This document shows, piece after piece, positions 36,251 to 37,588 of a DNA stretch of 64,000 nt; position 1 is the stretch's first letter; each line of letters starts with the position of its first letter. The notes beneath the pieces were generated by a model, which saw only the letters and a program-made list of their open reading frames with translations, searched no databases and was not told where the DNA came from. The translations under genes were made by a program, and so were the position numbers. Source of the DNA: Barnesiella intestinihominis YIT 11860 (GTDB taxonomy: Bacteria; Bacteroidota; Bacteroidia; Bacteroidales; Barnesiellaceae); NCBI RefSeq assembly GCF_000296465.1, contig NZ_JH815204.1:681681-745680 (forward strand), written 5' to 3'.

Positions 36251-36282
36251 CAAAGATAGTATAAACCCAAAAGCGAAACAAA
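36251..36282 (-). promoter_or_regulatory. Promoter of pyrK-pyrD
   Basis: On the minus strand: TTTG (36282-36279), a 20-nt spacer and TATCTTTG (36258-36251), 18 nt before the pyrK ATG. Both elements match the Bacteroidota consensus. Confidence 0.75.
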
Positions 36283-36335: not shown

Positions 36336-36872
36336 TTATTCATTGTCCGGGGAAAATGTCTCGAACGTATTATCGGAGTAGAAAATCATGATTTTAGTTG
36401 CTTTTTTATTTTTTACGACCTGTTCCGATGGCTCGAAAAATGGTGCTTTTAAGTTTGTTATTTCTTCATTTTCAAGTTTATGGTCCTGCTTTTGATGAAT
36501 ATTAGAGTCATTTTCCCTCGAATATTTTGAAGGAGCTGTATATTCGTCCGGTTTTATTTCATTCTCCTCGGGAAATAAAGATGTTGAAAATTCTTTGGAG
36601 GGTGAGGTAATGTTTTCGGCCGGAGGTATTGTCGCCGTCAAAATCATAGGGCCTGTTCCATATAACAGCCAATAGATAGATAAGTCGGGATAGGCAGAAT
36701 GTATCTTCCCAATGGTATTGATACTGATCTTCTGATTTCGTCCACCCAAAATTTGAGACATTGAAGATCTCTGTATCTTAGTTGCATCGGCAAATTGCGT
36801 AACAGATATACCCTTATACTCGATAAAACTTTTCATTCTTTCGGCAACAATTAGAGCTTCATTTTCTTCCAT
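36336..36872 (-). CDS. XRE-type helix-turn-helix regulator with unassigned C-terminal half
   Basis: From ATG 36872 it is 178 residues; the frame is open 53 codons further up, but that part crosses the promoter. Residues ~8-70 form an HTH: AERMKSFIEYKGISVTQFAD, KIQRSSMSQILGGRN (recognition helix), NTIGKIHSAYPDLSIYWLLY, which is the layout of small Bacteroidota repressors. Residues ~80-178 are polar, rich in Glu, Lys, Pro and Ser, with no family match, ending KKATKIMIFYSDNTFETFSP. Its promoter overlaps a palindrome that is repeated further upstream, so autoregulation is likely. It is not a LexA/CI type, as no peptidase motif was seen. The target genes are unknown. Confidence 0.75.
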   Translation of the reverse strand: MEENEALIVAERMKSFIEYKGISVTQFADATKIQRSSMSQILGGRNQKISINTIGKIHSAYPDLSIYWLLYGTGPMILTATIPPAENITSPSKEFSTSLFPEENEIKPDEYTAPSKYSRENDSNIHQKQDHKLENEEITNLKAPFFEPSEQVVKNKKATKIMIFYSDNTFETFSPDNE

Positions 36873-36911
36873 TTTTAGGGGTGTAAATAGATTCGTAATA
36901 ATAAAATTATA

Positions 36912-36977
36912 GTTTACAAATGTAACAAGAATAAATAAAAAACACAAGTTTGTTTTGTAAATTGCGTGATTTACAAA
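36912..36977 (-). promoter_or_regulatory. Promoter of the XRE regulator with two operator-like palindromes
   Basis: On the minus strand: TTG (36947-36945), a 20-nt spacer and TACATTTG (36924-36917). The -7 box lies inside GTTTACAAATGTAAC (36912-36926), an imperfect palindrome. Just upstream, TTTGTAAAT-N6-ATTTACAAA (36954-36977) is a perfect 9-bp inverted repeat with the same half-site. Confidence 0.6.
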
Positions 36978-37522
36978 TGCAAATAAAACAACATGAGGTA
37001 TACTTCGTAAATAGCCTTCATTGTTTACCAATAAGAATATTTATTAAAAGTATTATTTTACATTTATATATATAATTATTTAGAAATCAATATTTTATTT
37101 GTTGTATATAAAAAACAGCCTGCGTGTATCGTTCGAAATTCGAAGTTATACCTCGAATATACTTTACATTAAACATATTAAAACGTTGGTTTTTAATTAT
37201 TTGTATTATATATATTGTAGATATAATAATTGTTTATATATCTCTGTACTTGGTGGATATGCAAATGTAACACCTCTACCCTTTATGAGTTACAGATTTT
37301 TATTTTGTGTGATTTTGTTTTGTGTGTCACATTTGTAAACAGTAGTTATGAATTACAAATGTAAACTGCAAGCCGGTTTATAACTCAACTTCACGAGATT
37401 TTATTTTTCTAGTACAGATGTAATCTTGTTCAAAAATATGAGAATTATAAGCCCTTTAAATCCTATTCGAAATAGATTTATATTATTGATTCAAAATATA
37501 TTACAACTGTAAATAGTGTAAA
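36978..37522. other. AT-rich gene-free stretch with repeated TTACAnnTGTAA sites
   Basis: About 550 nt between the XRE regulator and the uvrA terminator with no convincing gene. It holds GCAAATGTAAC (37261-37271), ACATTTGTAA and TTACAAATGT facing each other over a 14-nt spacer (37329-37338 and 37353-37362), a looser GTACAGATGTAAT (37412-37424) and TTACAACTGTAA (37501-37512). They share the half-site of the palindromes at the XRE promoter. Sites at 37262-37269 and 37357-37364 also read as a TACATTTG or similar -7 box on the minus strand. No RNA gene or origin could be identified. Confidence 0.5.
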
Positions 37523-37556
37523 AAAAGGGTCCAAATTTTATACTTTGAGCCCTTTT
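37523..37556 (-). terminator. Terminator after uvrA
   Basis: AAAAGGGTCCAAA with TTTGAGCCCTTTT (one mismatch, one wobble) and an 8-nt loop. On the minus strand a 7-T run follows. It lies 32 nt after the uvrA stop. Confidence 0.8.
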
Positions 37557-37588
37557 CTATCTTTCAAAATCGTAATATGTCGTTTTTC

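Follow-up and report, generated by a model that had tools for sequence, protein, structure and literature searches.

Upstream of an XRE regulator gene in Barnesiella intestinihominis lies an array of short palindromes that we read as the operators of this regulator, which would use them for cooperative repression of its own transcription, with looping or compaction of the DNA bringing a second, distant cluster of sites to the promoter. We put the probability of this model as a whole at roughly 0.7. It is built on features taken from the sequence, namely palindromic sites that are concentrated at this locus, form two clusters, overlap a promoter, are conserved and change along with the recognition helix of the regulator.

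Palindromes upstream of the XRE regulator gene

The gene-free gap (716 nt; positions 36873 to 37588 of the window, i.e., the whole 64-kb stretch of DNA analyzed, from a genome of 3.44 Mb) lies between the 3' end of uvrA on the minus strand and the start of the regulator gene (36336 to 36872, minus strand, start at 36872), which encodes a Cro/CI-type HTH protein with a translation of 178 amino acids, the presumed binder of the array. Exact copies of TTACANNTGTAA (TTACA-N2-TGTAA) are found three times in this gap, at 36914 to 36925 (operator O1), 37353 to 37364 and 37501 to 37512. Sites with one mismatch are present at 36971 to 36982, at a distance of 57 bp from O1 (57 to 58 bp in congeners), at 37327 to 37338 and at 37412 to 37423, the last being homologous to a conserved TTTACATCGGTACA block in congeners, and a weak distal site with two mismatches is located at 37259 to 37270. 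O1 is exact TTACATTTGTAA at the homologous site in eight of nine Barnesiella genomes and has one mismatch in the ninth (G006), and at the place of the exact copy at 37501 to 37512 most congeners have no operator, even with one mismatch allowed. The latter site adjoins an inverted repeat with a T-run at the uvrA 3' end (37520 to 37552, minus strand), a probable terminator that was recognized by eye and was not listed by the automatic scan; comparable GC-rich repeats stand at this position in most congeners. At least five copies of the palindrome had been listed by the sequence-only reading, and these are real, with coordinates correct to within a few bases; the copy at 37412 to 37423 had been overlooked.

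The palindrome is far more frequent here than expected. Nine matches at up to one mismatch were found in the window, six of them within the 600-nt stretch, and whole-window shuffles gave a mean of 3.0. The whole genome contains five exact TTACA-N2-TGTAA sites, including the three in this gap, and four copies of the reversed pattern, which served as the composition control for motif counts; at up to one mismatch, the genome-wide numbers are 153 for the motif and 139 for the control. Thus, the motif is not common in the genome but concentrated at this locus. Across the nine Barnesiella genomes, 22 of 39 exact sites fall into this one gap, and the other 17 are close to the number obtained with the reversed pattern (18). 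The genome-wide count against expectation that had been proposed on first sight of the array thus shows that the motif is not equally frequent elsewhere. The gap has a GC content of 18 to 28%, and this AT-richness is not the explanation, since the nine Barnesiella gaps contain 22 exact and 43 one-mismatch sites, compared with 0.01 and 1.34 in dinucleotide shuffles. A de novo palindrome search of single regions ranked the motif first in many loci, often with a z-score under that of the best of 12 shuffles (14.5 versus 15.8 for the best shuffle in the window). The single-region search alone is therefore not decisive, and the strength of the case lies in the pooled and genome-wide counts.

The order slt-uvrA-gap-regulator is found in all nine Barnesiella genomes, with pyrK-pyrD next in eight of them, and the gap measures about 716 to 783 nt in all nine, although the value for one genome (G003), in which the gene start lies 21 nt further upstream, overstates the length by about 21 nt. 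Of 393 genomes in the order, 180 have a homologue of the regulator (E value of 1e-10 or better). It often stands just ahead of pyrK-pyrD, and in most cases several hundred nucleotides of noncoding DNA precede it. In 38 upstream regions from other families, which are the best-scoring loci rather than all 180 homologue-bearing genomes, 88 one-mismatch sites were counted, compared with 4.79 in shuffles. A pooled search with no preset motif returned TTACA-N2-TGTAA first for the proximal region (16 of 43 loci) as well as for the distal region (14 of 43). When the comparative set was assembled from 43 processed loci, five were dropped for upstream stretches of at most 250 nt (L034, L037, L045, L085 and L093), and two (L029 and L030) were replaced by longer stretches of the same places (L060 and L061). 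The upstream boundaries were set by script, and some stop at contig ends; several start codons are wrong (L035, L043, L084, L094, L095, L098 without usable protein). The array accompanies the XRE gene also in families in which the upstream neighbor is not uvrA. Judged by these comparisons, the palindromes have been conserved over an order of gut bacteria.

Two clusters and the DNA between them

The sites fall into two clusters, at -20 to -150 and at -350 to -650, which are about 300 bp apart and have nearly no sites between them. Indeed, the Barnesiella sites at up to one mismatch (n = 43) divide into 24 proximal, 0 middle and 19 distal sites, with none of the 43 between -340 and -180, and the two-cluster layout is seen in all nine Barnesiella loci. 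O1 is positioned about 45 nt before the start codon in Barnesiella, with a second site 57 to 58 bp upstream in most of these genomes and often a third in between. Among the loci of other families, 11 combine a long gap with three or more sites, and both clusters were found in 6 of these, some of the start codons being unsure.

In the window, the DNA between the clusters (36983 to 37258) is AT rich and free of operators at up to one mismatch. It contains an IHF-like site, AATCAATATTTTA, at 37085 to 37097 (plus strand), a second one, AACCAACGTTTTA, at 37179 to 37191 (minus strand), which is aligned in congeners, and a dyad, ATAA-N7-TTAT, at 37223 to 37237, which is identical in all nine Barnesiella genomes. 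Besides the operators, conserved blocks were noted, namely ATAA-N7-TTAT, AAATAGAGTAGGG and AAAATCCYTGGCATATTTC, with conserved blocks also in L052 to L059. The IHF-like pattern WATCARN4TTR occurs nine times in the gap, in seven of the nine Barnesiella genomes, compared with 0.56 in shuffles; outside Barnesiella, it is about equally enriched in the distal part and the gap. The genome has five HU/IHF-family matches, and, together with the enrichment of the pattern, this leads us to read the gap as a bend-prone spacer across which the two clusters would meet. Spacings within clusters are periodic near 11 bp (R of 0.45 versus a 95% level of 0.25 for jittered positions; none of 300 jitters was as high), as would be expected if dimers sat on one face of the helix. 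Distances across the gap have no helical phasing at one mismatch. DNA looping, which had been offered as one possible role of the array, is thus compatible with the data and is our preferred mechanism for the distal cluster. Against a loop speak the unphased cross-gap distances, the lack of gap specificity of the IHF-like pattern outside Barnesiella and a protein model in which no bridging domain was seen. We consider the chances even that a loop or compaction brings the distal cluster to the promoter.

The sequence-only reading had also suggested the control region of an unseen small RNA. In this case, the array would control a small RNA or small protein encoded in the gap, and the clusters would flank its promoters. 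Non-operator blocks are in fact conserved in the region (AAAATCCYTGGCATATTTC, AAATAGAGTAGGG and ATAA-N7-TTAT), and a plus-strand promoter-like pair is present in the window at 37327 to 37338, but no sigma-ABfr promoter match in the gap or the distal cluster is conserved between congeners, and the distal sites overlap no conserved promoter. Furthermore, no consensus RNA structure was obtained on either strand of the gap, with a weak consensus fold in the distal part (-0.81 kcal/mol), Rfam gave no match near threshold, and a search of eight congeners for a conserved open reading frame in the gap gave no convincing match (best E value of 0.012 over 24 amino acids). A hidden RNA or gene was rejected on these grounds, and we regard it as an unlikely explanation of the array.

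Regulator promoter and binding protein

Bacteroidota promoters differ from those of E. coli. The regulator promoter, with a -33 element (TTG; 36945 to 36948, minus strand), a spacer of 20 and the -7 box TACATTTG (36917 to 36924, minus strand), has the form TTG-N20-TACATTTG here and TTTG-N19/20-TAnnTTTG in many loci, and it matches the sigma-ABfr consensus, with the -7 box TAnnTTTG, given in PMC7366714. The palindromic operator O1 covers the -7 box, and this arrangement is conserved. That the copy near 36912 contains the -7 box of the regulator itself, as had been noted from the sequence, is borne out by TACATTTG at 36924 to 36917 on the minus strand. Since O1 lies over the -7 box, an occupied O1 should block the regulator's own promoter.

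Control of pyrKD as the main output was rejected, because pyrK has a promoter-like pair of its own (-7 box TATCTTTG at 36251 to 36258, spacer of 20), which was found in all eight congeners with pyrK (seven perfect, one with one mismatch); therefore, the array need not control pyrKD. Outside Barnesiella, the rule used for this pair frequently gave no promoter for pyrK. Read-through from the regulator gene into pyrKD may occur.

There was no sign of a wider regulon, with 17 off-locus exact sites against a control of 18 and flanks with no target in common. Among the flanks of the two other exact sites in the genome (L004 and L005) and of 15 in congeners, no shared intergenic target was found, and no DNA-repair gene was recognized at the inspected flanks of off-locus exact sites in the nine genomes. 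Many of the off-locus exact sites are inside coding sequence, e.g., in two genomes (G004 and G008) at identical codons of a gene that is probably pck. Degenerate sites entered the regulon search through the genome-wide count. One off-locus exact site is next to a tiny frame, seen by eye (L005, 1502 to 1640), for a 24-residue lipoprotein-like peptide upstream of a GAPDH gene. With O1 on the regulator's own promoter and no shared target elsewhere, the regulator probably represses itself.

The lack of an evident regulon outside its own locus would also fit an array that is mainly a structural or chromosome-organizing site and not a gene operator; arrays confined to one position on the chromosome are characteristic of partition sites. 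However, O1 sits on the regulator promoter and accompanies it across families, and the distance from dnaA varies between genomes (about 0.26 of 3.08 Mb, 0.55 of 3.4 Mb and about 0.9 of 4.3 Mb), which led us to reject a fixed replication-linked site. We therefore consider a structural role quite improbable.

The regulator has a match to HTH_26 (PF13443) with 23.1 bits in a profile search (cutoff, 22). Its model has a five-helix N-terminal domain (residues 3 to 71), residues 78 to 178 are below a pLDDT of 50, and Foldseek gave weak fold matches of the N terminus to SinR, 434 Cro and P22 c2. The profile match, the five-helix model and the weak fold matches together describe a Cro/CI-type HTH of the lambda-repressor kind, and, as judged by its domain and the placement of its operators, the regulator belongs to the broad Cro/CI-HTH class. 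It does not belong to the S24 LexA-like repressors; the profile search of the 178-aa protein revealed no S24 peptidase domain. No oligomerization domain is visible in the model, in which residues 78 to 178 are without confident prediction. A C-terminal stretch, KIMIFYSDNTFETFSP (residues 158 to 175), is strongly conserved across families and is preceded by a variable linker; the family libraries searched gave no name for it. No viral relatives were confirmed.

The identity of the binding protein can be approached through the recognition helix. Regulators with x-Q/K-R at the start of this helix (class A) are accompanied by TTACA-N2-TGTAA in 22 of 22 loci (87 sites; 3.4 in shuffles). In the x-N-R group (five loci, four of them from one family), TTACA is at background (one site), and GTTCA-N6-TGAAC is found instead, with five sites in four of the five loci (0.1 in shuffles), at positions that correspond to the same two clusters (near -470 and -400, and near -95 and -58). 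The x-P-R group (class B; eight loci, of which L099 was misassigned to it through a wrong expression match) has a strong signal for ATTTGCAAAT (22 sites versus 1.35 in shuffles), but this palindrome is not exclusive to class B, since class A likewise has more of it than the shuffles do (21 versus 3.6). In 9 of 47 loci, the class of the helix could not be assigned clearly. The palindrome changes with the recognition helix and the layout stays, which makes the regulator very probably the binder. Sequence comparison thus makes it highly probable that the palindromes serve the adjacent XRE regulator as its operators. The proposal of an operator array is strongly supported by this change of the palindrome with the helix, by its concentration genome-wide and by its conservation in Barnesiella and in other families.

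A different protein, an S24 LexA-like or a BlaI/CopY-type repressor, might bind the array instead. uvrA is an SOS gene elsewhere, and the BlaI/CopY-type box, TACAnnTGTA, falls inside TTACA-N2-TGTAA. The genome has a single S24 protein (HTH plus S24, CI/LexA-like; L019/L101, G000 contig 4, about 475.9 to 476.6 kb) and two Penicillinase_R (BlaI-family) proteins, and LexA-like proteins of Bacteroidetes recognize short palindromes, one of them being TTAC-AAATT-GTAA (PMC8565304). However, the S24 gene has another perfect palindrome, GGTAATTTTACC, immediately before its start, and its upstream region lacks TTACA-N2-TGTAA even with one mismatch allowed. Neither of the two Penicillinase_R loci has TACANNTGTA, so that a BlaI/CopY-type operator was rejected. 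A noncanonical LexA was rejected as well: the regulator has no S24 domain, and no DNA-repair gene was recognized at the off-locus flanks inspected. Moreover, the array follows the XRE gene where uvrA is not the neighbor and changes with the XRE recognition helix. Another binder is therefore very improbable. The S24 protein and GGTAATTTTACC are candidates for the SOS-type repressor of the genome and its operator.

Chance repeats of a -7 box in AT-rich DNA or the remains of a mobile element, the latter also raised by the sequence-only reading, are hardly credible: TTACATTTGTAA does contain TAnnTTTG and some off-locus sites in the genome look promoter-like by eye, but the shuffle and genome counts contradict this explanation, the distal sites in the Barnesiella gaps often read TTACAATTGTAA, which is not a -7 box, and the synteny of slt-uvrA-gap-regulator in all nine Barnesiella genomes, together with the conserved layout, contradicts a mobile element.

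In the cooperative autorepression that we favor, the XRE regulator would bind the palindromes and repress its own transcription. A dimer bound at O1 on the -7 box would block sigma-ABfr RNA polymerase, and proximal sites 23 to 58 bp away, on the same face of the helix, would reinforce binding. The second cluster, 350 to 650 bp upstream, would bind the same regulator and reach the promoter when the AT-rich, bend-prone gap is looped or compacted, a folding that HU/IHF-family proteins would probably assist. The outcome would be a steep, self-limiting control. Binding, repression, cooperativity, the loop and the help of HU/IHF-family proteins are what we infer from the features of the locus.

Relation to known systems

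To our knowledge, there are few descriptions of DNA looping or of large operator arrays from Bacteroidota. The locus is a compact looping or array candidate in gut commensals, with a testable protein, defined sites and natural variants of both protein and operator. It also poses a puzzle, for a conserved regulator with an elaborate control region shows no other evident target. A bolder idea, which we rate as doubtful, is that a Bacteroidales-wide regulator is devoted to nothing but its own control region of 600 to 900 bp and that this region is folded into a closed nucleoprotein switch by the regulator and HU/IHF-family proteins, the layout being kept and the operator and recognition helix changing together. 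If this were true, the folded state (bistable or signal-gated) and not a regulon would be what selection preserves. No paper on this regulator or operator was found in the open-access literature; BtModulome (PMC12596196) may hold expression data for a homologue. The Cro/CI class is known, but within the open-access literature we found no description of a two-cluster architecture that is order-wide, apparently has a single target and switches its operators.

Several systems share features with the one proposed here. Like the noncanonical LexA of Bacteroidetes (PMC8565304), the regulator has a CI-like N-terminal HTH, short palindromes at its own promoter and operators that diverge between lineages, but it has no S24 domain, no sign of a DNA-damage regulon and more sites per locus. 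At the arsR promoter of Helicobacter pylori, Fur has several operators, and short-range compaction was proposed as the repressing state (PMC5007355). There, too, several operators of one repressor are found at a promoter on a similar scale, but protein family and signal are different, and compaction was reported from experiments in H. pylori and is proposed in our case. C.AhdI, C.BclI and SinR are similar in the N-terminal fold only (Foldseek probability of 1.00, but an E value of 0.05 or worse); unlike with C.AhdI and C.BclI, no restriction-modification genes were seen adjoining the regulator gene, and size and operator layout differ. In phage lambda, the operator clusters OL and OR of CI are joined by a loop. 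Unlike CI, the regulator is chromosomal and order-wide, its clusters are only about 300 bp apart with no second divergent operon, and the Barnesiella protein has no recognizable oligomerization or S24 domain; like CI, it has a Cro/CI-type HTH, palindromic operators in two clusters with spacings of 23 to 24 bp among those observed and, if our reading is correct, autoregulation.
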